Source: Terebella lapidaria
Taxonomy: Eukaryota > Annelida > Polychaeta > Terebellida > Terebellidae
Length of the DNA stretch: 64,000 nt
Assembly: GCA_949152475.1 (NCBI GenBank)
Contig: OX424561.1
Location: forward strand, 4,278,001-4,342,000
Direction: 5' to 3'
The translations under genes and the position numbers were made by a program. Numbering within the stretch: position 1 is the first letter of the stretch; each line of letters opens with the position of its first letter. Shown here one piece after another: positions 22,898-52,722 of the stretch. The notes under the pieces were generated by a model. It was given only the letters and a program-made list of their open reading frames with translations, had not been told where the DNA came from and did no database searches.

Positions 22898-23270
22898 CTT
22901 GTGAACGCGCTACAGGCCGCAATTCTCACCCGATCACCATTATTTTTTGCAGGCACATATATAATGGTAAGATCCCGACACCAATCGATTTTGGTTGCCG
23001 TGGCAACTGAATTGGTCGTTTGGGGACACATTTTGCATTGAAAACAGCCTGTTTGAGACACATGGCTTGTGAACGCGCTACAGGCCGCAATTCTCACCCG
23101 ATCACCATTATTTTTTGCAGGCACATATATTATGGTAAGATCCCAACACCAATCGATTTTGGTTGCCGTGGCAACTGAATTGGTCGTTTGGGGACACATT
23201 TTGCATTGAAAACAGCCTGTTTGAGACACATGGCTTGTGAACGCTCTACAGATGGCAATTTTTGACGAAT
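22898..23270 (+). repeat. 168-bp tandem repeat, two full copies and a partial
   Basis: Repeats begin near 22,898, 23,066 and 23,234 with CTTGTGAACGC. The period is 168 bp, a multiple of three, so the minus strand stays open for about 169 codons with a 56-residue repeat. The first two copies are nearly identical; the third decays after about 30 bases. This is treated as noncoding element DNA. Confidence 0.8.
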
Positions 23271-23500
23271 CTCGATAATATTTGGAAGTGTTGTTGGGAA
23301 GGGCTGTCACACGAAACCAATCGTTTTTTAGAATGATCATATAAATATTAATATGTTAACAGCCTAACTTATTACAGAATTTTGAAATATCCATTTTGAC
23401 ATGTACGATCATTCCAATAGCCTGTACAGTGGAAGGTAATGACACTGGTTTCTTGTTCAGAATGGAGAACTGAAGTTTTCAGTGAAAACAGGACAATATT

Positions 23501-24790
23501 ACTGAATAAGTTAACATTAGTTTTATTAGTTAAGTCTATTATTGTCCACAATAAAAATAGTTAAGACGAGAAACGTTTATTATTAAGCTCAACAAGGTAA
23601 AGGTTTTGTCCAGTACAAATTTCATGGGTGTAACTGAATAAGTTAACATTATTTTTAATAGTTAAGTCTATTATTGACCACAATAAAAATAGTTAAGACA
23701 AGAAATATTTATTATTAACCTCAACAAGGTAAATGTTTTGTCCAGTACAAATTTCATTGGTGTAACCGAATAAGTTAACATTATTTTCACTAGTTAAGTC
23801 TATTATTGACCACAATAAAAATAGTTAAGTCTATTATTGACCACAATAAAAATAGTTAAGATGAGAAATATTTATTATTAAGCTCAACAAGGTGAAAGTA
23901 TGTCCAGTACAGATTTCATGGGTGTACTGAATAAGTTAACATTATTTTTACTAGTTTAGTCTATTATTGACCACAATAAAAATAGTTAAGACAAGAAATA
24001 TTTATTATTGGGCTCAACAAGGTAAAGATTCTGTCCAGTAGACATTTTATGTCTGTAACCAAATAAGTTAAAAAATTTTTTGCTAGTTAAGTCTATTATT
24101 GACCTCAATAAAAAAAGTTAAGATGAGAAACAATTATTATTGAGCTCAACAAGGTTAAAGATTTGTCCAGTACAAATTTCATTGGTGTAACCGAATAAGT
24201 TAACATTATTTTCACTAGTTAAGTCTATTATTGACCACAATAAAAATAGTTAAGTCTATTATTGACCACAATAAAAATAGTTAAGATGAGAAATATTTAT
24301 TATTAAGCTCAACAAGGTGAAAGTATGTCCAGTACAGATTTCGTGGGTGTACTGAATAAGTTAACATTATTTTAACTAGTTTAGTCTATTATTGACCACA
24401 ATAAAAATAGTTAAGACAAGAAATATTTATTATTGGGCTCAACAAGGAAAAGATTCTGTCTAGTAGACATTTTATGTCTGTAACCAAATAAGTTAACATT
24501 TTTTTTGCTAGTTAAGTCTATTATTGACCTCAATAAAAATAGTTAAGATGAGAAACAATTATTATTGAGCTCAACAAGGTTAAGGTTTTGTCTGGTAGAA
24601 ATTTCTGGGTGTAACCGAATAAGTTAACTTTATTTTTACATGTTAAGTCTATTATTGACCACAATGAAAATAGACAAGAAATATTTATTATTGGGCTCAA
24701 CAAGGTGAAGGCTTTGTCCAGTAGAGATTTTATGTTTGTGACCAAATAAGTTAACATTATTTTTTTGCTAGTTAAGTCTATTATTGATCA
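23501..24790 (+). repeat. About 132-bp AT-rich tandem array with higher-order structure
   Basis: Units carry AATAAGTTAACATTATTTT, GTTAAGTCTATTATTGACC and GAAATATTTATTATT. Successive units start near 23,501, 23,633 and 23,765. Some contain an internal duplication of the GTTAAGTCTATTATTG segment. A block of about 425 bp recurs (23,765 and 24,190), which indicates higher-order unequal exchange. Confidence 0.8.
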
Positions 24791-24799
24791 CAATAGCTT

Positions 24800-25620
24800 T
24801 TTATGAAAACATTGATCAACTTTTACTTTGAATTTCAACTTGAGACCATGTTTGGCACAAATTATGAGTTAAAATATAACTTATGGTGAAAAATTCGATC
24901 TGGCTCCTATTTCGTCATCTTGAAATGCAGTTTTGGTCAACTTTTACTTTGAATTTCAACTTGAAAGCATGTTTGGCACATATTATAAGTCGAAATATAA
25001 CTTATGGCGAAAAGTTCTATCTGGCTCCACTTTCGTCATCTTGAAATGCAGTTTTGGTCAACTTTTACATTGAATTTCAACTTAATACCAAGTTTGGCAC
25101 ATATTATGAGTTGAAATATAACTCATGGCGAAAAGTTTGATCTGGGTCCAATTTCGTCATCTTGAAATGCAGTTTTGGTCAACTTTTACTTTGAATTTCA
25201 ACTTGAAAGCATATTTGGCACATATTATGAGTCGAAATTTAATTTATGGTGAAAAGTTCGATCTGGCTCCAATTTCGCCATCTTGAAATGCAGTTTTGGT
25301 CAACTTTTAGTTTGAATTTCAATTTGAAACCAAGTTGGGCAGGTATTATGAGTTAAAATATAACTTATGACGAAAAGTTTGATCTGGCTCCAATTTTGTC
25401 ATCTTGAAATGCAGTTTTGATTAACTTTTACTTTGAATTTCAACTTGAAACCATGTTTAGCCCATACATGTATTATGAATCGAAATATAACTTATGGTGA
25501 GAAGTTCAATCTAGCTCCAATTTCGTCATCTTGAAATGCATTTTTGGTCAAATTTTACTTTGAATTCCAACTTGGAACCAAAATTGTAAAATATTCTGAG
25601 TTGAAATATAAATAGGTGAA
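24800..25620 (+). repeat. About 121-bp tandem array
   Basis: Seven or so units share CAACTTTTACTTTGAATTTC, GAGTCGAAATATAACTTATG and TTCGTCATCTTGAAATGC. The period is about 121 bp (for example 24,931 and 25,052). Divergence between units is higher than in the 168-bp block, so this array looks older. Confidence 0.8.
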
Positions 25621-25915
25621 AAGATTGATCTATCTGTATTTTCGTTATTTTATCAAACATGTCGAATGGAAATTCATATAAAGAGATTTCAGTGGTGATT
25701 TTGAATTCGACCTTCAATAACCTCGGAAAATCAGTGCAGCAGTTTTGGTGGGGAAAAGAAAACAGTTGTGACTTGGGATTTAACATTTCTCTGGTAATCT
25801 TTTTTAGCCCTTGCTCTAGTTTTTCACACTTGACAGTGATATATTTGGGGCAACAGAGATGATAGGGCTACGGGGGATACACCCAAGCGGTCGTAGGCGA
25901 CCGGAAGTGTCTAGT

Positions 25916-26935: not shown

Positions 26936-27740
26936 ACTAGATGCGTCTAGTAGAGCACACAACAGCGTCTAGTCAAAGAGCTTATTTTCACTTTATTGGT
27001 ATAAGCTCTTTGGTCTAGTAGAGTAGATAATAGCATCTAGTAGAGTATGCAACAGCGTCTAGCAGACCAGCTATTAGTGTCTAGTAGAATAGACAACAGC
27101 GTCTATAGTAGAGAAGACAACACCATCCGCTGGAGCACATATCATTGTCTAGTGGAATAGACAACAGTGTCTAGTAGAGTAGATAATAGCGTCAAGTAGA
27201 GCAGACAACAGTGTAAGCAACAGTAGAGTAAGCAATACCGTCTGGTAGAATAGACACCATCTATTAGAGTAGGCAATAACGTCTAGTAGAGTAGATGACA
27301 GCCTCTAGTAGAGTAGACAACAGTGTCTAGTAGAGTAAGCAATACCGTCTGGTAGAATAGACACCATCTATTAGAGTAGGCAATAACGTCTAGTAGAGTA
27401 GATGACAGCCTCTAGTAGAGTAGACAACAGTGTCTAGTAGAGTAAGCAATACCGTCTGGTAGAATAGACAGCATCTATTAGAGTAGGCAATAACGTCTAG
27501 TAGAGTAGATGACAGCCTCTAGTAGAGTAGACAACAGTGTCTAGTAGAGTAAGCAATACCGTCTGGTAGAATAGACACCATCTATTAGAGTAGGCAATAA
27601 CGTCTAGTAGAGTAGATGACAGCCTCTAGTAGAGTAGACAACAGTGTCTAGTAGAGTAAGCAATACCGTCTGGTAGAATAGACACCATCTAGTAGAGTAG
27701 GCAATAACATCTAGTAGAGTAGACAACAGCATCTAGTAGA
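26936..27740 (+). repeat. TCTAGTAGAG minisatellite with 107-bp higher-order repeat
   Basis: The basic unit is about 20-22 bp around GTCTAGTAGAGTAGACAACA. From about 27,231 the block starting AGCAATACCG recurs at 27,231, 27,338, 27,445, 27,552 and 27,659, exactly 107 bp apart, so five basic units became a homogenised higher-order unit. The left third is more degenerate. Confidence 0.85.
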
Positions 27741-28342
27741 GCGACTATCAGCATAACCCGATTTATGTCTCTACACCGCTACAGGATTGAGTGTTACTTA
27801 TGTGCTACGAGTTATATAGAACTGGGAAAATATTCTACAATTACGTGTATTGCCCAAAATATAACCCCATAAAAGTGCAATGCTGATGCCTTAAAGTACA
27901 AAGATAACACTAGGGGCATAGAGCAGGAGAAATTATTGTAGTACTAGTTATGGACGATAGGTAATGAATCCAGCACAGATTACTCTTGGTTGTGGCAAGG
28001 TTGAGGGGATTTCTGGTCTTGAATTGTCTCCCGGAGGGTTGTGTGAGGGATGGGGGGGGGGGGGGGTCTTTTATCAGGGATAGGTCAGCATTAGGAGATC
28101 ACATGAAATATTGTGCATCCTTCACACTTTGGGCTGTGCATCCTTACGCTTGAGAAATGATTCCAGGGGGAGCAGAGTGAAACATGGAGAAGGAAGATTA
28201 GATAATGCTGCATTTACAAATTTTGGAAAACGTGAATTGCTGTAGGCTGTTGAAAACTTGAAATACGAAAATATCAGGAGAAAAAGCTTTCTTTACTTTC
28301 TGAAGCTTGAATTCAGGAGTGAGGTTATGTTTAGAATACTTG
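27741..28342. other. Noncoding left flank of the retrotransposon
   Basis: No gene seen. Holds a 15-base G run at 28,052-28,066. The last five bases before the LTR are ACTTG. Confidence 0.6.
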
Positions 28343-29685
28343 TGTAGCGATTTTACGATTGATGGTTGTTTGGTGCCGTGTTTGTTTCTCGTTGTGTTTA
28401 TTTTTCGTATAGTCTTTTTGTAGTACCTCTCGTCTCTGTGTCCGAACGCTATAGACAATTAATAGTGAGACGTCCGCAATTCCATAGTATTTCTCTGGTT
28501 AGAGAAAAGTGCTGAAGACATATTAATTCAAAGACACGGGTTTTATTACCAAATTCGACAAGTTACTCACTCACAAAATATATGAAATGTTTCCCCAAAT
28601 TACACAGTGACCAGGTTTAGACTAAGTCACCGGGCTTTACAATAATAAAAGGTTACACCGGGTCCAGGTTTAGACTAAGACCTGCTTTAACTTTAGGCAT
28701 CCGAACTAGCGTCAGTCTCCTCCTACGCGAAGTCCATGCGGAGGTGAAGGTTCCCTGGCTCCGCAATTCTTCCGCCTCCGGAGGTAGATACTTGCGGAGG
28801 TCGTCTCGACGTCGTCCGCGGAGGTGTCGCCGGTGCGGAGGTCCTCACTCTCTGCGGAGGTCTTCCGCGCTGCGGAGGTCCTCTCTCTGCGGAGGTCTTC
28901 CGCGCTGCGGAGGTCCCGAGGCTCCGCAGAGGCTCCTCGTCCTTGCGGAGGGTCCTCCGCACGTCTGCTACACCTCCCTCGTCCGCGGGTGCGGAGGGTC
29001 GTCACCTGCGGAGACTGGGTGTCTCCGCACGTCGGGAAACTTCCCTCGCCACTCCGCGGGTGCGGAGTATCGTCCGAGACGTCCTTCACAAGTCCGCGGG
29101 TGCGGAGGTTCGTCTAATGCGGAGACGGAGTGTCTCCGCACATCAGGGGACGTCCCTCACAGGTCCGCGGGTTGCGGAGGTCTACCAGAGACTTCCCTCA
29201 CGCTTGCACCAGTGTGCAAGAAGAGATCGCCGCCTTGCCGTCAGCTGCAGGTGAAGAGGGCCGGGGTTCATAAATTGAAGGGCCGTTGGACCGGATTCAT
29301 ACGATTGTCTTCATCTGGGACCCACACCCTTCCCGTTGAAATTTCCCTTACATGGAGTCCAGGGGCTCCGCACTGCGGAGGTCAATATGTGCGGAGGTAC
29401 GGCAAACTGCTAAGTCCTCTCCCTCGCCTGTCCAAAGGACAGAACCGTCTCAGGGTGATGTGTCTCCTCTGGTACCTTGCCCCGACTGACTCCCAGAGAG
29501 CTGTGGCTGCCTCCTTATATTGGGCTCTCCACCGGAAGCTGTTCTGCGCATGTGCATGCCTGGTCTTCCGCAAGCACGTGGCCGATCCTCTGCATGCACG
29601 TGGTCGAACCTCCGCAAGAACGTGATCACTCCTCCGCGGGTGGTTTTGCGGAGGAGGACGGTGGTTTTATGAGTTCGTTATATTT
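28343..29685 (-). repeat. 3' LTR (left LTR)
   Basis: On the plus strand it begins TGTAGCGATTTT and ends GTTATATTT, so in element orientation it runs AAATATAAC...GCTACA. The 3' edge has the usual CA, but the 5' edge lacks TG. I count about 17 TGCGGAG and 7 CTCCGCA between 28,737 and 29,660. Minus-strand AATAAA signals occur at 28,397-28,402 and 28,542-28,547. TATA-like words lie near 28,579 and 29,513-29,522; if the former is the promoter, the motif array sits upstream of it in U3. Promoter position is inference. Confidence 0.93.
28397..28547 (-). promoter_or_regulatory. Candidate LTR polyadenylation signals
   Basis: Two minus-strand AATAAA words (28397-28402 and 28542-28547) in the 3' LTR, with equivalents in the right LTR (for example 38,037-38,042). 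The one nearest the LTR 3' edge is the better candidate; not proven. Confidence 0.35.
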
Positions 29686-29697
29686 CCACCCTCTCTG
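29686..29697 (-). other. Polypurine tract
   Basis: On the minus strand GAGAGGGTGG directly abuts the start of the 3' LTR (followed by AAATATAAC). This is the expected place and composition for the plus-strand DNA primer of an LTR retrotransposon. The one T makes it imperfect. Confidence 0.7.
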
Positions 29698-29766
29698 GGT
29701 TGGACACGTCCTCGTGTCCGGGGTTGTAGGCATCTCTGGTGCCGCTTCCCGCTCCGATGTGCTCCC

Positions 29767-30864
29767 TCACTCCTGAGACGGAGACTTCGTCAGGAGTCGC
29801 CGCAGGGCTTCCTCTCGTTGGTCCTGCTTCCTGCGGAGGCGCTCGTTCTCTTCCCGTAGGGACTGCCGCTCCTCTGTAGCGCGTAGTAGAGCCTCCTCCA
29901 CAGTAGCTAGTCGCCGCTGCAACTCGCTGACCCGGGGCAGCTCCCTCAGCTCCTGGAGACGTCGCTCGGCTCGCTCCTGCGCACGGCGCCCTATCCCCAC
30001 CAGCTCGTCGACCTCGTGTCGGAAGGTGCAGAGCCTCAGCAGGACCCGGTAATGGGCCCCCACCCACGTCTGCACCTCCGCGGCGGTAGCGTCTTCCGGA
30101 GGTCCGGCGAACCAGTCTCTGTCGTGGCCATCCAACAGCTCGGGCACGATGCCGTCCATGACGACGGAGGTTGCCGACTTCTGGCTGGCGGGGGTCTGAG
30201 GTTCGTCCTCCTCCTCCGAACTGGATCCTCCCGAGCTGGAGAGGGGTCGCAGACTCCCGGCTTCCCGGGTCGTCACCACCCGCGTATCACCCGACTGTTG
30301 GTCCACGAGAAGGTGCACGACTTCCTGGTCCCGCTCCGGTTCTCCGGTGGTCTCCGGTGGCGCCATGGAGGACTCTCGCCTTGCCTTCTTCTGGCTCGGG
30401 GTGGCCTTCATTCTACTCGGCTGGGTGTCCCGACTTCGGCTCCCAGAGGACTTCTGCGGGCGCTTCTCCCGCCTCTCGGTGCTCCGCCGACTCTCTCTCG
30501 CCCGCCGGTCATGGCCCAGGAGGTGCCGTTGAAGGTCTCCGTAGCGGGACGTGCGGTAATCGCATCCCGACCTCTCACACACAAGGAGACGCGGCTTCTC
30601 GTGAACTTCCCTCCGGTGCCTGGCCATGTTCTTCTTCAGGACTAGCGTCTCGCACTTTTCACACTTAGTGTGCCGGGGTGTGGCGGACGGGTCATCGTCA
30701 TCAGTGAGGCCATGGACGTCGTCCATCAGCATCTTCGTCAAATCGTCTTCGCTATGTCTCTCTTTCGACATCCTGTCAAACTCTGCACAGATTTGCGGAG
30801 GTGCCGCCCTTTTAAAGACTCCCAAAAGTATTTTTCCCCAAATTCTAGGTATTCTCCATGACAT
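29767..30864 (-). CDS. ORF3: two-finger C2H2 zinc-finger, coiled-coil protein of the retrotransposon
   Basis: 365 residues from ATG at 30,864; an internal Met at residue 32 (MSKERHSED) is an alternative start. Finger 1 is C68, C71, H83, H88 (11 residues before the first His, one short of canonical). Finger 2 is C96, C101, H114, H118. A 7-residue linker beginning EKP joins them, the normal linker length. Helix residues are N79 and R82 at positions 3 and 6 of finger 1, and R107, D110 and R113 at positions -1, 3 and 6 of finger 2; the recognition code gives GCG then GA-any. Residues 119-161 are basic and could be a nuclear localisation region, 207-230 are Ser/Glu-rich, and 285-357 are Leu/Glu/Arg heptads, a likely coiled coil broken at P310. 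No signal peptide or membrane segment, so it is not env. It lies between pol and the 3' LTR, 288 bp after pol, and probably needs a spliced or internal message. Role inferred: binding the TGCGGAG words of its own element. Confidence 0.85.
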   Translation of the reverse strand: MSWRIPRIWGKILLGVFKRAAPPQICAEFDRMSKERHSEDDLTKMLMDDVHGLTDDDDPSATPRHTKCEKCETLVLKKNMARHRREVHEKPRLLVCERSGCDYRTSRYGDLQRHLLGHDRRARESRRSTERREKRPQKSSGSRSRDTQPSRMKATPSQKKARRESSMAPPETTGEPERDQEVVHLLVDQQSGDTRVVTTREAGSLRPLSSSGGSSSEEEDEPQTPASQKSATSVVMDGIVPELLDGHDRDWFAGPPEDATAAEVQTWVGAHYRVLLRLCTFRHEVDELVGIGRRAQERAERRLQELRELPRVSELQRRLATVEEALLRATEERQSLREENERLRRKQDQREEALRRLLTKSPSQE

Positions 30865-30902
30865 CGATTGTCATTTTACGTCATGACGTCATACCGTTTG
30901 TT

Positions 30903-31020
30903 CGGCTCCGCAATGCGGAGGGTGTCTTCCGCACTGCGGAGGTAGGGTCCTCCGCACTGCGGAGGTCCTCCGCACCGCGGAGGTTGGTCTTCCGCACTGC
31001 GGAGGTAGGTCAGTCTCCGC
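30903..31020. promoter_or_regulatory. Palindromic CTCCGCA/TGCGGAG array between pol and ORF3
   Basis: In about 118 bases there are four CTCCGCA and four TGCGGAG words plus near matches, arranged head to head as palindromes such as CTCCGCACTGCGGAGG. The spacing suits a dimeric binding protein. The array lies directly upstream of the ORF3 start, so it could be an operator or promoter element for ORF3, or an RNA hairpin series. Function is inference. Confidence 0.6.
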
Positions 31021-31152
31021 AGCCGGCACCAAACTTCTTTAATATTGAAAATAATTTTCAACATTATTGTCGAGTTTCTTGTAGTGACGAAAATAATTCC
31101 CATCATTGGCACCCGTCTCTGCAAAGGCATCGCGTTTCCATCGCTCCCGATT

Positions 31153-34100
31153 TTATCTCGCCTTCAGAAATAGTATGTCCAGCCATACTAAAAGTATAGC
31201 TAACGCTCCCCCAAGGTAAAACAGCCACGGGAGCTCAGGCCGTACAGCCATCTCCCTCGGAACGGAAGTGCCACGTGACTTGGCCCGGGTGGGTGCTGGC
31301 GCTTCTGTAGCACAATACGCCCAATCTCCGAGCCTTTGCGGCGCCCTCCAACTCCGTCTCGGTCGTCTTGCCTCCACCGTCTCGTCCGGCTCCACATCCG
31401 GCTCCGCGTCCGTCACCTCCCTAGGGTCCTCCGGTTCTCCTGCGCCCGACGCGTCCTCCGCGGCCGTCACCTCCGGTCCGTCCATCCCGTCCTCCCTCGA
31501 CGCCTCCGCATCCTCCACCTCCTCCGCAGGGTCTCCGCCACCAGTGCGAACCCAAGGGGCCTGTTCAGGAGTGTACGGGCACGTCTTAAGATGGTCAATA
31601 TGGACTTCCTTCGGCGCGTCCGTCGGGGACTTCTGGATTTTAACACGCCAGCCCAGTTGGGCGTCCACGACCAGGTAAGGTCCTGTCCAACCCAACCCGA
31701 GCTTCGGTCGAGCCTTCGGTGGATACCAGTACAGTACCCAGGTACCAACTGGAAACCGTCTCCGTGCCGCCTTCAGATCGTGGTTTTTCTTCTGCCGCAC
31801 CGTAGCCGCCTTCATCTGAGCACGGGCGTACTCGTGAGCGATGGCAGTGGCTTCTCTCACCCACTCCACATACTCGTGTGAGCACGCAGGTGGGGCCTCC
31901 TCCCTCCCTTCAGGGTCCGTCCGATACATCAGATCGAGAGGAGTAGTCGCCTCTCTGCCCGTCATCATCCGATTCGGCGTGCAGCCCGTACTGTCATGAA
32001 CAGAAGCCCGGTACGCAGACGTCACATATGGTAACCAGTCATCCCAGTCGTCATGGTTGTCATTGACGACCGCGGATAACATCTGGAGGAGCGACCGGTT
32101 GAATCGCTCCACCATGCCGTTAGATTGCGGGTGATATGGGCTAGCATGGATCTTCTCGCTGCCCAATATCGTGGCTAGCTCTCGGAAGAGGCCGGATTCG
32201 AATTCTCGGCCCATATCTGAGAAAATACGGGCCGGAGCTCCCCATCTACACACAAACTCCGTGACGAACACGTCCGCTACCGTCTGCGCCCTATGGTCAG
32301 GCATCGCGTAGGCCTCCGTCCATCGAGTGAAACAATCTGTGATGACGAGAACGTACCGCTGCCCCCTCTTTGAGATCACGCCAATCTCCAGCACGTAAAT
32401 CGCCACCCTCTCTAGACGGTCACCCACCGGTGCATTACCCATGGGCTGATGCCGGGGCCCTGGCCGTGGTTTCCGCGCACTGCACCTCGGACAGGCTCCG
32501 CACCAAGTCTCGACGTCCTTCGTCATCCCGCACCAGTACATCCGTGCCTTGATCTTCCGGAGCGTCCGGCTGACACCTTGATGTCCCCCAAGAGGCCGAT
32601 CATGGACTTCCTTCAGGACTGCCTTCCGCACACTGTAGGGTATGATGAGCTGGAGTAGGGGCTCCTTCTGCCAGTCCACCTGTGCACGGCGGAAAAGGAG
32701 TCCGTCCTTCACAACCAGCTGGTCCCACTGCTGCCAGTAGGCCTTCACTGCGTGGCTCTTAGTCCTGACATCTGTCCATTCCGGTCTCTCGTCAGCCGCC
32801 GTCTTCCAATCGAGTATATGGCGAAGGTCCGGGTCAGAGCTCTGCAGAGTCTTGAGCTCCTCCGCAGAGTAACCAACCCATCTTTCCTCCGCGGCTCCGG
32901 AGGTAGAGAGGTCCGACACACTTGTGGAGTCTCCGCTCGGCTTCCGGAGGTTTTGTCGGCGCCGCGGCTCCGGAGGGTCCTCTGCATCGACGACTGGGGT
33001 GATCCTCTTCACCAAGGGCAGAACAGAGGTCCGGCCGTTGACCTCCGCGCTCCGCACCTCGAAGTCCATCCTCCCCAGTCCATCTCCGCAAAAGTCATCC
33101 TCCTGCCAGCGCCGTCCTTCCTCCGGTCGCAAAGAGAGCAAGAGCCCCACAAGGCCATCCCAGTTCTCCCCACTCAGGGGAGGGAGAAGCTCCTCGTCTG
33201 AACCTCCCTCGTCCTCCGTTCCTCCACATCCTTCTCTCTTACACTGCCGACACCGGGACATGCCGTCCGCGTTGCTATGCCTCACTCCGGGACGAATCTC
33301 ACAGCGAAAGTCATAGCTTGCGATCCGTGCTGCCCAGCGGGCTATCATGCCCTCCGCATCCCTGAAATTAAGAAGCCATCTCAGGGAAGCATGGTCGGTC
33401 CTGAGCAGGAACTTCCGGCCCCATAGGTAGTGGCGAAAGTGGTGTATCATCGCCACCACCGCAAGGAGTTCCCTCTTTGTGGTACAGTAGTTCCTCTGGG
33501 TGGTACGCAAGGAACGACTGGCATAAGCGATCACTCTCTCCTGACCCTCGCGGACCTGGGAAAGGACTCCTCCTATGCCGTACCCACTCGCATCCGTGTC
33601 CAGGACGAAATCCTGGGTAAAGTCCGGGTAGACCAGCAGAGGGCTCTTCGTGAGGGGTTCCTTCAGCGCCTCAAAGGCCTCCTGGCAGGCGTCCGTCCAT
33701 CTGTAGGGGACATCCTTCTTCAGGAGGGCCGTGAGTGGACCCGCCTTCGTGGCAAAGTTCTTGATGAACCGCCGGTAGTACCCGACGAAACCAAGGAAGC
33801 ACCTCAGCTCCGCCAGGTCCCAGGGAGGCTCGTAGCGCTTCACAGCCTCCACCTTCTCCGGGTCGCACTCGACGCCTCGCTGAGACACCTTGTGGCCCAG
33901 GAAACGGACTTCCCTCTGAAGTAGCTGGCACTTCGAGGGCTTCAGCTTCAAGCCCGCCTCCCGGAGCCTCTGGAACACATCCCTCAGGTTGCTCAGCGCC
34001 TCCGCCAGATCACTCCCGATGCAGATCACGTCGTCCAGGTACACGAGACACCTTCTCCACTGCAGCCCTCGCAGCGCAAGCTCCATGAGCCGCTCGAAGG

Positions 34101-36012
34101 TGGCTGGGGCGGTTGCAAGACCAAACGGCATCACGCGGAACTGGTATAATCCGCTCCTCGTGGTGAACGCTGTCTTCCCCTTGTCCTCCTTCTCCATTTC
34201 CACCTGCCAGTACCCGCTCGCCAAATCGAGCGTGGAGAAGTACTGGGCCCCTGCCAGAGTGTCGAAGCTCTCGTCTATCCTGGGCAAAGGATAGGCATCC
34301 TTTCTCGTCACATCATTGAGTTTCCGGTAGTCCACACAGAACCTTGTGGTTCCGTCCTTTTTACGGACGAGGACTACGGGAGACGACCACGGACTATCAC
34401 TGGACTCTATCACTCCCACTTTCAACATCTTGTCCACCTCTGCCTCTATAAGCTCCTGCTGCTTGTAGGGCGCTCTACGGAGGGGCTGCTTGATGGGTCT
34501 GTGATCTCCTGTATCTATCGTGTGTCGCACCAGTGACGTCCGTCCTAGTCCCCCGTCTTCCCCTGTGAACACATCCGTGAAGTCCAAAATCAGTTTGCGG
34601 AGGTCCTGGACCTCCGCAGGAGTCAGTGCGGAGGTAACACCCTCCAACAGTGGCTGCAAGTGCGGAGGTAGCGGCTCCGCACCCCGTCTCTGCAGAGGCA
34701 TGCATCCTGCCACGCACTGCTCCGCGTCTCCGGAGGGAGAAGGCTCCGCACAGTCCGGTTGATGTTGACTCGGCACCGGCATTACCTCCTCAACCTCATG
34801 TAGGTGTGCCAGCAGGCTTCCTCCTGGTATCGTCACCTCGTGCTCCTCCGTGTTAAGGAGAAGCACCGTCACCTCGCCTCCGCACGGCTCTACCAGGGCT
34901 CTTCCCACCGTCACGTCACCATCGGTTGGCGGCTGCACAAGGCCGACCCGTGGTCGCCTCGTACCAGGTGTACCGTCGATCAGAAGGGAGACCAGGACTT
35001 CGGACCACGCCGGGAGACTAATGGGATCCCCCGCACGTAGCCCTAGGACCGTTGGCTCCGGTCTCTCACTCAGGAACACCGTCCGCTCTTCTATCTTCAT
35101 TTCTCCACGGGCGAGGTCGAGTGTGGCACCCAGAGTGTGTAGTACGTCCATACCGAGCACTCCAGGCATCCCCACACGTCCTATGACGACTTCTGATGGT
35201 ACCTCCAAGTCCCCCAGATGCAGGATGGTAGGGAGCGTGCCGAGGACATCAAGGTAGTCTCCCGTTGCTGCGCGTAGGGCGATCCTCGAGGTCCTCAGAC
35301 GCTCCTTCACATGGTCAGGTAACTTATCAAAAACAGAAACATCCACAACTGTGGAAACAGCACCCGTGTCAACCAGGAGGTTGATTTCTCGTCCCTCAAG
35401 GAGACATCGGGCATACCAAGCTAAGGGTTTAGGTTTGGTGAACTTTATACAGGACAAGGGAAGCTCCGCATCCCTCTCGGGCATGACACCCGGAGTCTCG
35501 GCCTCAGTATGTACAGTTGACAGAGGAGGGCCGTCCTCCCCCTCAGGTAAGACACCTGGAGTCGTACGAACATCACGAACATCGTTATTTACAGTAGACA
35601 GAGAAGGGTTCACCTTCCCCTCAGGTAAGACACCTGGAGTCGTAGGCACATCATCATCATCATCAATGCTATTTACAGTGGACAGAGAAGGGTTCGCCTT
35701 CCCCTCAGGTAAGACACCTGGAGTCGTAGGTACATCACAAACATCAGTATCATCAGGCACATCATGAACATCAGTAACATCATCGTCGCGGAGGCAGGAG
35801 TCTCCTCCGCAAATATATTCCCATATGAGGTCGCAGAGACTATCCCTGCGGGTAACTCTATTCACACTATGTACAGATCCTGCATCTCCACCTTCCGTCT
35901 CGTCTTGTCGCCTTCTAATCCTGACCTGTGCTTGCCAGGAATTGCCCGTCGTCTCGGCGTCAGAAACGGGCCCCTCTAGTTTGACGAGAGGTCCTCCGTC
36001 TCTAACTCCTCC
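31153..36012 (-). CDS. pol: Pol polyprotein: protease, reverse transcriptase, RNase H, integrase
   Basis: The frame opens after a stop at 36,013-36,015, overlaps the gag end and lies in the -1 frame. It has no early ATG, so I take it as a gag-pol frameshift product. Numbering from the GTG at 35,865 (1570 residues): acidic TTPGVLPEG repeats about 46-130; aspartic protease LLVDTGA (D166); reverse transcriptase about 470-680 with YLDD 609-612; RNase H with D758, E799 and D824; integrase zinc domain H1088, H1095, C1125, C1128; integrase core with D1217 and E1253 spaced by 35; GPY/F module near 1392-1400. The first core Asp, expected about residue 1157, is Tyr (RVAIYVLE), so strand transfer is predicted to be impaired in this copy. 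The last 26 residues include a hydrophobic, membrane-like stretch (about 1546-1567), unusual for an integrase. No other break seen. Confidence 0.95.
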   Translation of the reverse strand, partial: GGVRDGGPLVKLEGPVSDAETTGNSWQAQVRIRRRQDETEGGDAGSVHSVNRVTRRDSLCDLIWEYICGGDSCLRDDDVTDVHDVPDDTDVCDVPTTPGVLPEGKANPSLSTVNSIDDDDDVPTTPGVLPEGKVNPSLSTVNNDVRDVRTTPGVLPEGEDGPPLSTVHTEAETPGVMPERDAELPLSCIKFTKPKPLAWYARCLLEGREINLLVDTGAVSTVVDVSVFDKLPDHVKERLRTSRIALRAATGDYLDVLGTLPTILHLGDLEVPSEVVIGRVGMPGVLGMDVLHTLGATLDLARGEMKIEERTVFLSERPEPTVLGLRAGDPISLPAWSEVLVSLLIDGTPGTRRPRVGLVQPPTDGDVTVGRALVEPCGGEVTVLLLNTEEHEVTIPGGSLLAHLHEVEEVMPVPSQHQPDCAEPSPSGDAEQCVAGCMPLQRRGAEPLPPHLQPLLEGVTSALTPAEVQDLRKLILDFTDVFTGEDGGLGRTSLVRHTIDTGDHRPIKQPLRRAPYKQQELIEAEVDKMLKVGVIESSDSPWSSPVVLVRKKDGTTRFCVDYRKLNDVTRKDAYPLPRIDESFDTLAGAQYFSTLDLASGYWQVEMEKEDKGKTAFTTRSGLYQFRVMPFGLATAPATFERLMELALRGLQWRRCLVYLDDVICIGSDLAEALSNLRDVFQRLREAGLKLKPSKCQLLQREVRFLGHKVSQRGVECDPEKVEAVKRYEPPWDLAELRCFLGFVGYYRRFIKNFATKAGPLTALLKKDVPYRWTDACQEAFEALKEPLTKSPLLVYPDFTQDFVLDTDASGYGIGGVLSQVREGQERVIAYASRSLRTTQRNYCTTKRELLAVVAMIHHFRHYLWGRKFLLRTDHASLRWLLNFRDAEGMIARWAARIASYDFRCEIRPGVRHSNADGMSRCRQCKREGCGGTEDEGGSDEELLPPLSGENWDGLVGLLLSLRPEEGRRWQEDDFCGDGLGRMDFEVRSAEVNGRTSVLPLVKRITPVVDAEDPPEPRRRQNLRKPSGDSTSVSDLSTSGAAEERWVGYSAEELKTLQSSDPDLRHILDWKTAADERPEWTDVRTKSHAVKAYWQQWDQLVVKDGLLFRRAQVDWQKEPLLQLIIPYSVRKAVLKEVHDRPLGGHQGVSRTLRKIKARMYWCGMTKDVETWCGACPRCSARKPRPGPRHQPMGNAPVGDRLERVAIYVLEIGVISKRGQRYVLVITDCFTRWTEAYAMPDHRAQTVADVFVTEFVCRWGAPARIFSDMGREFESGLFRELATILGSEKIHASPYHPQSNGMVERFNRSLLQMLSAVVNDNHDDWDDWLPYVTSAYRASVHDSTGCTPNRMMTGREATTPLDLMYRTDPEGREEAPPACSHEYVEWVREATAIAHEYARAQMKAATVRQKKNHDLKAARRRFPVGTWVLYWYPPKARPKLGLGWTGPYLVVDAQLGWRVKIQKSPTDAPKEVHIDHLKTCPYTPEQAPWVRTGGGDPAEEVEDAEASREDGMDGPEVTAAEDASGAGEPEDPREVTDAEPDVEPDETVEARRPRRSWRAPQRLGDWAYCATEAPAPTRAKSRGTSVPREMAVRPELPWLFYLGGALAILLVWLDILFLKAR
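35460..35745 (-). repeat. In-frame TTPGVLPEG repeat at the Pol N-terminus
   Basis: Three good copies and one weaker copy of TTPGVLPEGK-NPSLSTVN, separated by Asp/Val linkers, lie just before the protease. Copies are nearly identical at DNA level, so expansion was recent. It may be a spacer or a protease-processing region; unknown. Confidence 0.8.
35976..36012 (-). other. Gag-pol overlap, candidate -1 frameshift window
   Basis: Gag ends with TAG at 35,976-35,978 and the pol frame is open from 36,012, giving about 37 bases of overlap in the -1 relation. The only heptamer near the stop with an A-AAC second half is GTCAAAC, directly before TAG. It is a poor match to the X XXY YYZ rule, because the first three bases are not identical. 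The frame relation is certain; the slip site is a guess. Confidence 0.6.
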
Positions 36013-37919
36013 TCAGGGACGTCTTCGTCCTCCAGCTGCTTCAACAGGAGCGCCAGGGACTTGACATCCTTCGGTCTCTGGGGACACTCCCTACTCAGGT
36101 GTCCGGGTTGTCGGCACAGCCAGCACTCCCGGTCCCGACCTCGAGGTCCCTGTGCCGAGGTCGTCCGCGGAGTCGTCACTCCCTCCACCTTCTTCAAGAC
36201 CGTCCCCATCAGTTCGATCAGCTGGTCCATCTTCTGGGCCTGGGTCTCGAACATTCCCTTGAAGTAGGGAAGTCGAGGCCCAAAGCCACTCTTCTTATCG
36301 TCCTTCTTCGGTGGAGGCCGATCCCCCTTGGTGAAGGCCATCACATCGTGTGGCGCCTCCACCGGTTTCTCGTCCTCCGCCAAGGCGCGGACTGCACGCA
36401 CTGGCTTGCGGTTGACACTTTCATACTGGGTGATGAAAGCCGTCGCCTCTTCCAGGGTCTTCATGTCCTTCATCAGGGCCATGAGCTTCATGTCACCGTC
36501 CCCGTGACCCTTCAGGAAGCTTTCCAATGCGATGGTCTCGTGAGCCTCATCCCCGAGGTGAGGATACGACCTCTCAACCAACCGCCGGATATGTTGAGCA
36601 AAGGCCTGCGGTGTCTCCCCAGTCTTCCGCGTCCTGCTTCGTAACGCCGCCCTGTAGGTCTCTTCTTGGCAGGCGGGGTCGAAACGCTTGGCCAGTTTCT
36701 CCACGAGGAGATCCCAGTCCTTGTACTGGTCCGGTTTCATCCCCGTGAGGATCCGCCTCGCATCTCCCGTCAAGCTGCTCGCCAGGTACAGCCCCCGTTC
36801 CATCTTTCCCCATCTATTGACTTCGGCGATCACCGAGAAGTGGCTCAGGTATTCAGGCCACTCCATCGAAACACCGTCATACTTGTCCGGGAACATCTGT
36901 CTCCGTCGCTCCGCAGGTGCCGGTGCAAATGCGGAGGAGGATGAGGTGCTCCCGTCGGAGTCACTCCTCCGGCCTCGCCGTCTCTGCGGACCCGAAGACC
37001 GTCGACGTCCCCGATGAGAGAGGGTACTCTCGGTGGTAGACCCGTCTGTCTCCGAATCCGTATCTCTCCTCCTCTGCCGCTCCTGGGGTGTTACTGGAGC
37101 GGTTACCTGTCCGGGCTGGACGGCCGGTGGTCCTTGGTGGTAGTAGACCACCGGTACTGGCTGCGGAGGCGGCGCTCCCATCTGCGGAGCCATCTGTGGA
37201 GCCACCATCTGCGGAGCCATCTGTGGCCGTTGCTGCGGAGCCACCTGCGGAGCCATCACGAGCTCATACATCGGCGGAGCCGGCTGTACTGCGGAGGCCG
37301 TCGGCTGCGGAGCGTACGCGGCTCCTCCCATCTGCGGAGGTGGTACAGCTCCCATCGTGCGGCCGGCGGCTGCTCCGTGCCCCACATCATGGCCGGAAGG
37401 CCCGGCTTGGGACTGATCATGGCTCAGCCCCCTCTCTTCCTGCCACCCTCTCTGGACCGAAGGTCCCCCGTGGGTGAGAGACCTCAGAAAGGATGGGGAA
37501 GGTGCTCGCTGCCTCCCCTCGGCCGATCGGGTTCTTCCTCGTCCCTCCGATGCGGCTCGTCCTCTGCCTCGCAGGTAGTCCTCAGACACGAGGATCTCGC
37601 TGTCCCCCAAGTAAGAGCTGGGTCTCCCCAAAACTCTACTGAGCCCTGGGCTCTCGCGGACCCTCTGCAGGTAGCGCTCCCGCTCTCGCCTCCTGTCATG
37701 TTCCGTCCACCCAGACCACTCGGGGGTCTCCTCACTCCGGATGGAGCGAGGACATCTGTCATCACCAGCTCCGGAGGCCTCTGATCTTCCGGAGTCCTCC
37801 GGACCCGCGTCCTCAGATTGTCTTCCACACTCCTCTGCGTCACCAGATCCTCCGCACTTCCTCGATCTTCCCTCGTCTTCCGCGGAGGACTTCAGATCCT
37901 TTCCCTCTGTTTCGGACAT
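35976..37919 (-). CDS. gag: Gag polyprotein with CCHC zinc knuckle
   Basis: 647 residues from ATG at 37,919. The N-terminal third is charged and low complexity. Residues 190-270 are rich in Pro, Gln and Met with several MAPQ/APQM copies. The retrotransposon gag (capsid-like) domain covers about 340-505, starting near MFPDKYDG. The nucleocapsid zinc knuckle is C599, C602, H607, C612 (spacing 2-4-4), and the tail is acidic. Gag assembles the particle and packages element RNA. The APQ repeats are encoded by GCTCCGCAG, so this stretch also holds about eight copies of the element-wide TGCGGAG word. The frame is intact. Confidence 0.93.
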   Translation of the reverse strand: MSETEGKDLKSSAEDEGRSRKCGGSGDAEECGRQSEDAGPEDSGRSEASGAGDDRCPRSIRSEETPEWSGWTEHDRRRERERYLQRVRESPGLSRVLGRPSSYLGDSEILVSEDYLRGRGRAASEGRGRTRSAEGRQRAPSPSFLRSLTHGGPSVQRGWQEERGLSHDQSQAGPSGHDVGHGAAAGRTMGAVPPPQMGGAAYAPQPTASAVQPAPPMYELVMAPQVAPQQRPQMAPQMVAPQMAPQMGAPPPQPVPVVYYHQGPPAVQPGQVTAPVTPQERQRRRDTDSETDGSTTESTLSHRGRRRSSGPQRRRGRRSDSDGSTSSSSAFAPAPAERRRQMFPDKYDGVSMEWPEYLSHFSVIAEVNRWGKMERGLYLASSLTGDARRILTGMKPDQYKDWDLLVEKLAKRFDPACQEETYRAALRSRTRKTGETPQAFAQHIRRLVERSYPHLGDEAHETIALESFLKGHGDGDMKLMALMKDMKTLEEATAFITQYESVNRKPVRAVRALAEDEKPVEAPHDVMAFTKGDRPPPKKDDKKSGFGPRLPYFKGMFETQAQKMDQLIELMGTVLKKVEGVTTPRTTSAQGPRGRDRECWLCRQPGHLSRECPQRPKDVKSLALLLKQLEDEDVPEEELETEDLSSN

Positions 37920-37957: not shown

Positions 37958-37976
37958 GATCCTGGTCACGGCACCA
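37958..37976 (-). other. Primer-binding site, tRNA-His type
   Basis: Six bases inside the 5' LTR edge the minus strand reads TGGTGCCGTGACCAGGAT. Its complement ends TCACGGCACCA, which matches the acceptor end of animal tRNA-His (5' strand GCCGTGA) plus CCA. At least 18 bases fit the arthropod-like form I recall. It would prime minus-strand DNA synthesis. Confidence 0.85.
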
Positions 37977-37982
37977 AGTTTC

Positions 37983-39326
37983 TGTAGCGATTTTACGATT
38001 GATGGTTGTTTGGTGCCGTGTTTGTTTCTCGTTGTGTTTATTTTTCGTATAGTCTTTTTGTAGTACCTCTCGTCTCTGTGTCCGAACGCTATAGACAATT
38101 AATAGTGAGACGTCCGCAATTCCATAGTATTTCTCTGGTTAGAGAAAAGTGCTGAAGACATATTAATTCAAAGACACGGGTTTTATTACCAAATTCGACA
38201 AGTTACTCACTCACAAAATATATGAAATGTTTCCCCAAATTACACAGTGACCAGGTTTAGACTAAGTCACCGGGCTTTACAATAATAAAAGGTTACACCG
38301 GGTCCAGGTTTAGACTAAGACCCTGCTTTAACTTTAGGCATCCGAACTAGCGTCAGTCTCCTCCTACGCGAAGTCCATGTGGAGGTGAAGGTTCCCTGGC
38401 TCCGCAATTCTTCCGCCTCCGGAGGTAGATACTTGCGGAGGTCGTCTCGACGTCGTCCGCGGAGGTGTCACCGGTGCGGAGGTCCTCACTCTCTGCGGAG
38501 GTCTTCCGCGCTGCGGAGGTCCTCTCTCTGCGGAGGTCTTCCGCGCTGCGGAGGTCCCGAGGCTCCGCAGAGGCTCCTCGTCCTTGCGGAGGGTCCTCCG
38601 CACGTCTGCTACACCTCCCTCGTCCGCGGGTGCGGAGGGTCGTCACCTGCGGAGACTGGGTGTCTCCGCACGTCGGGAAACTTCCCTCGCCACTCCGCGG
38701 GTGCGGAGTATCGTCCGAGACGTCCTTCACAAGTCCGCGGGTGCGGAGGTTCGTCTAATGCGGAGACGGAGTGTCTCCGCACATCAGGGGACGTCCCTCA
38801 CAGGTCCGCGGGTTGCGGAGGTCTACCAGAGACTTCCCTCACGCTTGCACCAGTGTGCAAGAAGAGATCGCCGCCTTGCCGTCAGCTGCAGGTGAAGAGG
38901 GCCGGGGTTCATAAATTGAAGGGCCGTTGGACCGGATTCATACGATTGTCTTCATCTGGGACCCACACCCTTCCCGTTGAAATTTCCCTTACATGGAGTC
39001 CAGGGGCTCCGCACTGCGGAGGTCAATATGTGCGGAGGTACGGCAAACTGCTAAGTCCTCTCCCTCGCCTGTCCAAAGGACAGAACCGTCTCAGGGTGAT
39101 GTGTCTCCTCTGGTACCTTGCCCCGACTGACTCCCAGAGAGCTGTGGCTGCCTCCTTATATTGGGCTCTCCACCGGAAGCTGTTCTGCGCATGTGCATGC
39201 CTGGTCTTCCGCAAGCACGTGGCCGATCCTCCGCATGCACGTGGTCGAACCTCCGCAAGAACGTGATCACTCCTCCGCGGGTGGTTTTGCGGAGGAGGAC
39301 GGTGGTTTTATGAGTTCGTTATATTT
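37983..39326 (-). repeat. 5' LTR (right LTR)
   Basis: Direct repeat of 28,343-29,685, differing by eye at C/T in ATG(C/T)GGAGG, G/A in GTGTC(G/A)CCGG, T/C near 39,231 and one extra C near 38,323. It drives transcription leftwards. U5 contains TTGGTGCCGTG on the plus strand (38,010-38,020), an exact 11-bp inverted match to the primer-site region at 37,967-37,977, with a 32-base loop. Confidence 0.93.
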
Positions 39327-39589
39327 GTTATCATCATGCATGCTCCATGATCCTGATCTAAATGTATCTGGATTCGGGATCATGGTACAGACAAATTACT
39401 ATTGCTGTGGCAATGAACTCAGCCATTTTACCACACAAGGGTTCAAAGCTCGTGATTGCACTAACAGTGACAATTTTCAAGGCATTTTGAGCAATAGCAT
39501 CCTACACAAAAGAGCAATATTGTACTCAAATTATTCCCAATAAGTGAAATATAAAGTTTCTGATGTCACGTGTTATTATTGTATGTTCT

Positions 39590-50035: not shown

Positions 50036-52722
50036 CACTATCCTCCTCAGTCCACTCGTCCTCAGTACATCCCGGGCTCACCTAAAGGCTTGGCTTGGAT
50101 ACTATCCCCCTCAGTCCACTCGTCCTCAGTACATCCCGGGCTCACCTAAAGGCTTGTCTTGGATACTATCCCCCTCAGTCCACTCGCCCCCAGTACATCC
50201 CAGGCTCACCTAAAGGCTTGTCTTGGATACTATCCTCCTCAGTCCACTCGTCCTCAGTACATCCCGGGCTCACCTAAAGGCTTGTCTTGGATACTATCCT
50301 TCTCAGTCCACTCGTCCTCAGTACATCCCGGGCTCACCTAAAGGCTTGTCTTGGATACTATCCTCCTCAGTCCACTCGTCCTCGGTACATCCCGGGCTCA
50401 CCTAAAGGCTTGTCTTGGATACTATCCTCCTCAGTCCACTCGTCCTCGGTACATCCCGGGCTCACCTAAAGGCTTGTCTTGGATACTATCCTCCTTAGTA
50501 CACTCGTCCTCAGTACATCCCGGGCTCACCTGAAGGCTTGTCTTGGATACTATCCTCCTCAGTCCCTCGTCCTCAGTACATCCCGGGCTCACCTAAAGGC
50601 TTGCCTTGGATACTATCCTCCTCAGTCCACTCGTCCTCAGTACATCCCGGGCTCACCTAAAGGCTTGCCTTGGATACTATCCTCCTCAGTCCACTCGTCC
50701 TCAGTACATCCTGGGCTCACCTAAAGGCTTGTCTTGGATACTATCCTCCTCAGTCCACTCGTCCTCAGTACATCTCAGGCTCACCTAAAGGCTTGTCTTG
50801 GATACTATCCTCCTCAGTCCACTCGTCCTCGGTACATCCCGGGCTCACCTAAAGGCTTGCCTTGGATACTATCCTCCTCAGTCCACTCGTCCTCAGTACA
50901 TCCCGGGCTCACCTAAAGGCTTGTCTTGGATTCTAACCTCCTCAGTCCACTCGTCCTCAGTACATCCCGGGCTCACCTAAAGGCTTGCCTTGGATACTAT
51001 CCTTCTCAGTCCACTCGTCCTCAGTACATCCCAGGCTCACCTAAAGGCTTGTCTTAGATACTATCCTCCTCAGTCCCTCGTCCTCAGTACATCCCGGGCT
51101 CACCTAAAGGCTTGCCTTGGATACTATCCTCCTCAGTCCACTCGTCGTCAGTACATCCCGGGCTCACCTAAAGGCTTGGCTTGGATACTATCCCCCTCAG
51201 TCCACTCGTCCTCAGTACATCCCGGGCTCACCTAAAGGCTTGTCTTGGATACTAACCTCCTCAGTCCACTCGTCCTCAGTACATCCCGGGCTCACCTAAA
51301 GGCTTGCCTTGGATACTATCCTCCTCAGTCCACTCGTCCTCAGTACATCCCAGGCTCACCTAAAGGCTTGCCTTGGATACTATCCTCCTCAGTCCACTCG
51401 TCCTCAGTACATCCCAGGCTCACCTAAAGGCTTGCCTTGGATACTATACTCCTCAGTCCACTCGTCCTCAGTACATCCCAGGCTCACCTAAAGGCTTGCC
51501 TTGGATACTATCCTCCTCAGTCCACTCGTCCTCAGTACATCCCGGGCTCACCCAAAGGCTTGCCTTGGATACTATCCTCCTCAGTCCACTCGTCCTCAGT
51601 ACATCCCAGGCTCACCTAAAGGCTTGCCTTGGATACTATCCTCCTCAGTCCACTCGTCCTCAGTACATCCCAGGCTCACCTAAAGGCTTGCCTTGGATAC
51701 TATCCTCCTCAGTCCACTCGTCCTCAGTACATCCCGGGCTCACCTAAAGGCTTGCCTTGGATACTATCCTCCTCAGTCCACTCGTCCTCAGTACATCCCG
51801 GGCTCACCCAAAGGCTTGCCTTGGATACTATCCTCCTCAGTCCACTCGTCCTCAGTACATCCCGGGCTCACCTAAAGGCTTGCCTTGGATACTATCCTCC
51901 TCAGTCCACTCGTCCTCAGTACATCCCAGGCTCACCTAAAGGCTTCCCTTGGATACTATCCTCCTCAGTCCACTCGTCCTCAGTACATCCCGGGCTCACC
52001 TAAAGGCTTGTTTTGGATACTATCCTCCTCAGTCCACTCGTTCTCAGTACATCCCAGACTCACCTAAAGGCTCGCCTTGGATACTATCCTCCTCAGTCCA
52101 CTCGTCCTCAGTACATCCCAGGCTCACCTAAAGGCTGGCCTTGGATACTATCCACCTCAGTCCACTCGTCCTCAGTACATCCCGGGCTCACCTAAAGGCT
52201 TGCCTTGGATACTATCCTCCTCAGTCCACTCGTCCTCAGTACATCCCGGGCTCACCTAAAGGCTTGTTTTGGATACTATCCTCCTCAGTCCACTCGTTCT
52301 CAGTACATCCCAGACTCACCTAAAGGCTCGCCTTGGATACTATCCTCCTCAGTCCACTCGTCCTCAGTACATCCCGGGCTCACCTAAAGGCTTGCCTTGG
52401 ATACTATCCTCCTCAGTCCACTCGTCCTCAGTACATCCCAGGCTCACCTAAAGGCTTGCCTTGGATACTATCCTCCTCAGTCCACTCGTCCTCAGTACAT
52501 CCCGGGCTCACCTAAAGGCTTGCCTTGGATACTATCCTGCTCAGTCCACTCGTCCTCAGTACATCCCAGGCTCACCTAAAGGCTTGTCTTGGATACTATC
52601 CTCCTCAGTCCACTCGTCCTCAGTACATCCCAGGCTCACCTGAAGGCTTGCCTTGGATACTATCTTCCTCAGTCCACTCGTCCTCAGTACATCCCAGGCT
52701 CACCTAAAGGCTTGCCTTGGAT
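50036..52722 (+). repeat. 64-bp satellite array, about 42 copies
   Basis: The unit runs from ATCCTCCTCAGTCCACTCG through CAGTACATCCCGGGCTCACC to AAAGGCTTGTCTTGGATACT. The period is 64 bp, with at least two 63-bp units (CAGTCCCTCG). Main variants are CCCGGGC/CCCAGGC and TTGTCTTGG/TTGCCTTGG. Marked variants recur 256 bp apart (CACCCAAAGGC near 51,550 and 51,806; the TTGTTTTGG and CATCCCAGACTC pair near 52,010 and 52,266), so exchange moves blocks of four units. The overlapping 60-codon frames it yields follow from 64 not being divisible by three and are not genes. Confidence 0.97.

Follow-up and report, generated by a model that had tools for sequence, protein, structure and literature searches.

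A zinc-finger protein encoded by a Ty3/gypsy retrotransposon of Terebella lapidaria has the repeated word of its own element as predicted target

Can a retrotransposon encode both a sequence-specific regulator and, many times over, the short DNA word that this regulator is predicted to read? This question is raised by a single Ty3/gypsy element on the minus strand of the 64,000-nucleotide stretch of DNA analyzed here (the window; C7:4278001-4342000 of a 761.6-Mb genome). Between its LTRs the element carries gag and then a pol frame with the domains PR, RT, RNaseH and IN in that order (154-243, 500-660, 723-851 and 1075-1246), which is the arrangement of Ty3/gypsy elements and not that of Ty1/copia, the group that includes the Sireviruses. 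Only 4 mismatches and 1 gap position distinguish the two LTRs, and thus the insertion is young. A gap of 288 bp separates pol from an additional frame, ORF3, whose working start is probably Met32 at position 30771 (Table 1). Among the 120 pol relatives listed, eight rows carry an organism name, and four of these eight are bivalves (Pinctada, two Mytilus and Pecten) at 41-50% identity. The window also holds large tandem arrays at 50037-52722, 54459-56035 and 57732-58937 (64 bp x 42, 69 bp x 23 and 110 bp x 11), and further arrays lie left of the element at 22898-25631 and 27013-27741, with units of 168, 132/425, 121 and 107 bp.

Table 1. Features of the Ty3/gypsy element, in window coordinates.
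Feature	Position	Strand	Remarks
5' LTR	37984..39327	-	direct repeat with 28344-29686; contains 24 TGCGGAG, 36 GCGGA
Candidate primer-binding site TGGTGCCGTGACCAGGA	37960..37976	-	read from the sequence adjoining the 5' LTR end
gag ORF with CCHC knuckle	35976..37919	-	22 GCGGA, exceeds synonymous shuffles
pol ORF, PR-RT-RNaseH-IN	31153..35865	-	Ty3/gypsy domain order
Word cluster, pol-ORF3 gap	30906..31021		11 GCGGA, both orientations; includes five TCCGC-N3-GCGGA inverted pairs
TATA-like box TTTAAAAG	30809..30816	-	45 bp upstream of ORF3 Met32; box present in 7 of 8 compared copies
ORF3	29767..30864	-	365 aa from first ATG; between pol and 3' LTR
Finger 1, C-x2-C-x11-H-x4-H	30601..30663	-	contact residues N3, R6
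Finger 2, C-x4-C-x12-H-x3-H	30511..30579	-	contact residues R-1, D3, R6
Acidic Ser-rich stretch after fingers, possible activation region	30061..30360 (approximate)	-	net charge -6 and -9 per 50 aa
Possible coiled coil at the C terminus, rich in Leu, Glu and Arg	29785..29970 (approximate)	-	composition only
Candidate polypurine tract before 3' LTR	29687..29698	-	read from sequence
3' LTR	28344..29686	-	word content as 5' LTR; main word cluster 28737-29179

The two fingers of ORF3 occupy residues 68-88 (finger 1, CEKCETLVLKKNMARHRREVH; helix positions -1 L, 2 K, 3 N and 6 R) and 96-118 (finger 2, CERSGCDYRTSRYGDLQRHLLGH; -1 R, 2 G, 3 D and 6 R), and our re-reading of ORF3 confirms the contact residues on which the original prediction was built. 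Under the recognition code, wherein Arg, Lys or His specifies guanine, Asn or Gln adenine and Asp or Glu cytosine, with the protein read antiparallel to the DNA (PMC12264921), finger 2 is predicted to read GCG and finger 1 GA-any, which reproduces the proposed target 5'-GCGGAN-3'. Finger 2 fits the canonical pattern (CX2-4C X12 HX3-5H), whereas in finger 1 the second Cys and the first His are separated by 11 residues in place of the typical twelve (PMC12264921). The same spacing recurs in all four ORF3 proteins read, namely those of the window element, of two further families of this genome (the sister family and family C, described below) and of P0004, a protein from another source. Because of this spacing, position -1 of finger 1 is unsure, but positions 3 and 6 are sure since they are counted back from the His.

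Database searches give a graded picture of these fingers. No finger model reached the cut-off in a Pfam scan of ORF3, the best being zf-H2C2_5 (E 1.4e-4, 21.8 bits versus 27). A profile of seven ORF3 sequences, some of them partial, nevertheless matched DNA-binding C2H2 proteins in the PDB, best YY1 (E 4e-6), along with the solved structures of WT1, CTCF and Zif268. When ORF3 alone was compared with the protein database, none of 7994 scored candidates had E<=0.01; a profile of three ORF3 families gave one match among 7992 scored, which was the sister family's own ORF3 (P0121), and scans of IMG/VR and of GTDB contigs confirmed no ORF3 relative. Two fingers alone are expected to recognize a short site, and specificity would need dimers or clustering.

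The word that contains the predicted target does saturate the element, as the original prediction held: TGCGGAG occurs 86 times in the window versus 4.3 expected (sd 2.1; largest of 100 shuffles 10). All but one of these 86 copies lie inside the element (24 per LTR, 8 in the gap between pol and ORF3, 16 in pol, 11 in gag and 2 in ORF3), and the flanks hold a single copy in 10.3 kb and none in 20.6 kb. In a ranking blind to the prediction, GCGGA, comprising the five bases that the code specifies, tops both the 435 5-mers of the window LTR (36 versus 3.3 expected) and the 177 of the gap (11 versus 0.9 expected); a given 5-mer would take the top rank 1 time in 512 under a uniform null. The bases around this core are variable, although it is commonly preceded by T and followed by GG. 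Among LTR sequences of the window family, GCGGA ranks first in 19 of 21 (second in L042, 74th in the 432-bp fragment L029), and LTR columns inside the words are better conserved than others in 18 of 20 comparisons despite the CpG that every word holds, the exceptions being the window element's own second LTR and L045; the copies share descent, and so neither set of counts is independent. Old copies carry the forms TGTGGAG and TGCAGAG, as decay of the word's CpG would give.

The excess extends into coding sequence. In both gag and pol, GCGGA is more frequent than in any of 1000 synonymous shuffles; ranked by shuffle z among 512 5-mers, GCGGA is first in gag and fourth in pol. ORF3 itself lacks such an excess, with 338 of 1000 shuffles reaching its observed count. 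The CpG observed/expected ratio is 1.01 in the LTR versus 0.45-0.65 in the flanks.

A sister family, found by integrase search (integrase 64% identical to that of the window element; two loci read), retains the core of this system after extensive divergence. Its ORF3 (L053 428-1525) is about 30% identical to that of the window element, yet it carries the same contacts N3, R6 and R-1, D3, R6. The LTRs of the two families share a single BLAST match at E<0.01, of 21 bp. The sister words are mostly TTCGCGGAAG(C/A), that is, GCGGA in another context, and the variants ATTGCGGAAG, TCAGCGGAAG and GTCGCGGAAG retain the core. In the sister LTR GCGGA leads the 364 5-mers (16 versus 2.5 expected), and in the gap of this family it takes third place among 154 (9 versus 1.4 expected). 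The sixth base is mostly G in the window element and A in the sister, and residue -1 of finger 1 is L and T, respectively, although we claim no contact here given the 11-residue spacing. At least 112 sister copies have an ORF3 listed as 100% identical (1713 first-look candidates, of which 112 were scored; for example G000, C1:6480827-6481921), and by this identity the family appears to have undergone a very recent transposition burst.

Family C (ten pol copies among 19 scored candidates; eleven matches to its ORF3, 99-100% identical over a 352-residue query) differs in both contacts and word. Finger 1 carries H3 and R6, and finger 2 carries R-1, D2, L3 and K6, for which the code gives (G)-any-G-G-G-any (rules from PMC12264921). 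In the 1343 bp upstream of ORF3 the top 6-mer is GGGCGA (10 versus 0.7 expected), 9 of whose 10 sites have the context RMGGGCGA; the base before the core is C in 6 and A in 4, and the one before that is G in 5, A in 4 and C in 1. GCGGA ranks 32nd of 455 5-mers in this upstream stretch. Compared with the window and sister families, the middle base of the finger-1 triplet changes from A to G with the change from Asn to His, and the change from Arg to Lys goes with a mostly purine base at the start of the finger-2 triplet. The two shared Arg residues keep GG, and the bases under the window Arg and Asp are looser under the family C Lys and Leu. Thus, the word has changed in the predicted direction, which fits co-change with the contact residues. 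Taken alone this match is weak, because it concerns one locus (a single 2.4-kb stretch) with ten sites and three firmly predicted bases, and a random 6-mer contains GGG on either strand about 1 time in 10. In one copy the word clusters again about 5 kb upstream of pol (C1:39307934-39308002), in what may be an LTR or a leader. The word pair pattern of family C is not private to it (1293 forward and 1145 reverse matches versus 426 and 341 for the control). Upstream of the GGGCGA cluster, family C also repeats the word GTGACA/TGTCAC, in 5-6 copies (L055 930-1110).

Two more distant candidates can be set beside these families. P0004 is 50% identical over the integrase query, has its ORF3 fused to pol and carries the contacts N3, R6 and R-1, D3, R6; it contains 47 Ala-Glu pairs versus 18.6 expected, 12 of them in residues 1471-1640, an excess such as GCGGAR would encode and only a hint. 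For family E (C4:21291847+), a weak match of finger-like character (E 0.13) lies 1.8 kb downstream of pol.

Taken together, word and finger residues appear to be either kept together or changed together in the two further ORF3-bearing families of this genome. The core of the original prediction, a retrotransposon finger protein predicted to read the word of the element that encodes it, thereby survives the refutation test that it had proposed, as applied to ORF3-bearing families. A second part of that prediction, in which a dimer reads inverted pairs of the word, fares differently. Inverted pairs do exist, and CTCCGCANNGCGGAG has 227 forward matches in the genome versus 1 for a reversed control. 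As a general logic, however, this arrangement fails, since close neighbor words are direct repeats in the sister family, mostly 14-15 bp apart, and in 5 of 6 cases in family C. For this reason we rejected a palindrome-bound dimer as a general rule, as well as a hairpin formed in the RNA.

Could the match between fingers and word be fortuitous? The words might be host-factor sites or slippage repeats, with ORF3 doing some other job, for example as an RNA or particle partner. Part of the words do reside in short tandem arrays, including 18-bp arrays in the window LTR, and the regular spacing in the sister family is likewise consistent with slippage. Moreover, Arg-rich helices favor G-rich predictions; once G-x-G-G-x is granted, the remaining agreement would arise by chance about once in 16 for each family, and the families are non-independent. 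We nevertheless consider this explanation very improbable. GCGGA outranks its neighbors while the flanks of the sites vary, the word tracks the contact residues across three families, and these residues persist where synonymous sites are saturated. An RNA signal is further disfavored by the equal use of both strands in the window LTR (GCGGA 18 and 18), although the sister family differs, with 24 of 25 sites on one strand.

The persistence of the contacts is evident from the ORF3 copies in this genome, where a search with ORF3 gives 92 matches at identities from 100% to 29%. In 15 copies compared with the window, pooled omega is 0.076 for the fingers and 0.288 for the rest of ORF3, a sign of purifying selection. 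Finger-1 R6 and finger-2 R-1, D3 and R6 are present in 15 of 15 copies and N3 in 14 (the decayed copy L045 has Ile at position 3 of finger 1), even though finger dS is >1 or saturated in 8 of the 15. This count does not include L043 (decayed; finger 2 with N3 and W6), L049 (without most of the fingers) or L050 (five contacts kept). Among decayed copies, L039 has lost the first Cys of finger 2 and L051 has Cys at finger 2 position 6; the oldest two copies read (L051 and L052) have degenerate fingers and few exact words.

The finger DNA of the 15 copies forms about three deep groups, and two copies, L044 and L047, reveal how ORF3 has traveled. Relative to the window, their ORF3 coding sequence is 62-79% identical, whereas readable 100-bp bins of the pol end, the gap and the LTR are 87-100% identical. 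In the comparison with window 29720-30770, their finger synonymous sites are saturated or nearly so, versus integrase dS values of 0.04 and 0.13. The borders of exchange lie near Met32 and near the 3' LTR, and the word is the same in gap and LTR; despite the heavy synonymous change, the contact residues have stayed. Because the drop in identity is confined to ORF3 coding sequence, we conclude that elements with a common word have exchanged ORF3 as a cassette; the border near Met32 also supports Met32 as the start. At another locus (L036 160-4463), one ORF3 copy is followed by a tandem series of three LTR pieces, two partial and one full, at intervals of about 1.5 kb.

What might a protein that binds these words do? 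The gaps of the window, sister and family C elements share one order, in which the words are followed by a TATA-like box and then by the ORF3 ATG, with 45, 42 and 35 bp, respectively, from box to ORF3 start. In the sister LTR, 14 words precede CTATATAAGG and two follow it, and two further overlapping TATA-like strings are found near the 3' end of this LTR. In the window LTR, five words precede a TATAA string at offset 168 and 31 follow it, and a second TATAA string is located at offset 5. TATA-like strings are no proof of promoters, and the internal promoter discussed here is putative. The fingers are followed by an acidic stretch in all three families, whereas P0004 is strongly acidic in only 1 of 14 bins. 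Between the word cluster and ORF3 (window 30865-30905) there is also a CRE-like palindrome, TGACGTCA, possibly a site for a host factor.

With moderate confidence, we propose that ORF3 is an element-encoded, sequence-specific C2H2 transcription factor that targets the GCGGA words of its own element and activates an internal promoter and the LTR. In this mechanism ORF3 would bind GCGGA-core words with finger 2 on GCG and finger 1 on GA-any. These words crowd around two presumed sites of transcription start. One is an internal promoter in the gap, from which ORF3 would be expressed, and the other is the LTR, from which gag-pol would be expressed. The protein would switch on its own promoter first and then the LTR, so that the loop would sustain itself, much as with foamy-virus Tas/Bel1. 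The sequences themselves document the finger motifs, the rank of the word, the retention of word and contacts among relatives, the cassette exchange and the TATA-like boxes downstream of the words; we infer binding, activation as the direction of the effect, use of the internal promoter and dimer formation. Among the roles originally offered, the promoter-like placement and the acidic stretch favor a transactivator over an RNA or particle partner.

The foamy-virus protein is the closest functional parallel in layout. Tas/Bel1, an activator of the acidic class, binds DNA at targets located in both the LTR and an internal promoter of its own LTR retroelement (PMC517496). ORF3 resembles it in its acidic stretch and in predicted DNA binding, and the word clusters in gap and LTR of the window and sister elements may be comparably placed. 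In contrast, ORF3 has C2H2 fingers and a repeated short word where Tas has a 27-bp site (PMC517496), its host is a Ty3/gypsy element in which no env was seen, and no foamy-virus Bel family is found among the ORF3 Pfam matches listed at E<=1.

If ORF3 instead repressed its own element, as a form of copy-number control by covering promoters, the same cis anatomy would fit, and most words of the window LTR do lie downstream of the candidate TATA box. We regard repression as improbable, given the acidic stretch after the fingers and the recent burst of a sister family that carries the same system and does not look repressed.

The main rival to transactivation is that ORF3 is a sequence-specific anti-silencing factor acting on the dense words, where it would remove or block methylation or repressive chromatin as VANC proteins do. 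Several observations speak for it. The word is dense over much of the element, including gag and pol beyond codon needs, every word holds a CpG, and the LTR lacks the CpG depletion of the flanks. VANC proteins, too, are encoded by the elements that carry their dense short motifs, and these motifs spread by tandem repetition and change together with the protein between related elements (PMC5735166); the element described here is likewise dense in a single short motif, with tandem spread suggested by the 18-bp arrays of the window LTR and the mostly 15-bp spacing in the sister. On the other hand, VANC21 motifs are mainly non-coding and in one orientation (PMC5735166), whereas the words described here also occupy coding sequence and are evenly oriented in the window LTR. 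VANC proteins belong to VANDAL transposons of Arabidopsis, with hypomethylation shown (PMC5735166), and the ORF3 element differs from these in its readable finger code and its promoter-like placement. The words before TATA-like boxes in three families point to promoters, and the element's density of words does not extend to ORF3 itself. We judge anti-silencing to be rather unlikely. A model confined to promoters, however, does not need the GCGGA excess in gag and pol, which would be better explained by anti-silencing of the VANC type or by both functions.

Two plant systems offer further comparison with the proposed transactivator. Sireviruses, which are Ty1/copia elements, have element-specific, CpG-rich CGG-CCG words in the LTR upstream of a TATA box and again upstream of a third gene after pol, where an internal promoter is suspected (PMC2829016). 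Their words are palindromic, unlike those described here as a whole, the third gene is called env-like, and the portion of that account used here proposes no element-encoded reader of the motif (PMC2829016). Additional ORFs of plant LTR retrotransposons likewise lie between pol and the 3' LTR, some of their products are nuclear, and an own promoter is reported for maize Grande gene23; many of these ORFs are antisense, however, and 'zinc finger' occurs 0 times in the main text of that source (PMC7264820). Within the open-access literature, judged by titles and the starts of abstracts and with most subscription papers outside this scope, no Ty3/gypsy element with such a system was found.

We lean towards the view that these elements represent an animal Ty3/gypsy lineage with a C2H2 regulator that is readable by code and acts on its own family's word at an internal promoter and the LTR. 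The pair of regulator and word would diverge between families, giving each a private regulatory channel, and cassettes would be exchanged only among elements that share a word. Protein and target can both be read from sequence in this case, and it would join known self-targeting regulators such as foamy-virus Tas and VANC. With three families in a single genome there are matched and mismatched pairs, such that co-evolution of a regulator and its cis sites is directly testable. The finding could also bear on why other LTR elements, as in the comparison with Sireviruses, keep CG-rich repeated words. The many identical sister copies of ORF3 point to a very recent spread of elements bearing this module, which would distribute preassembled networks of factor and sites across host genomes.
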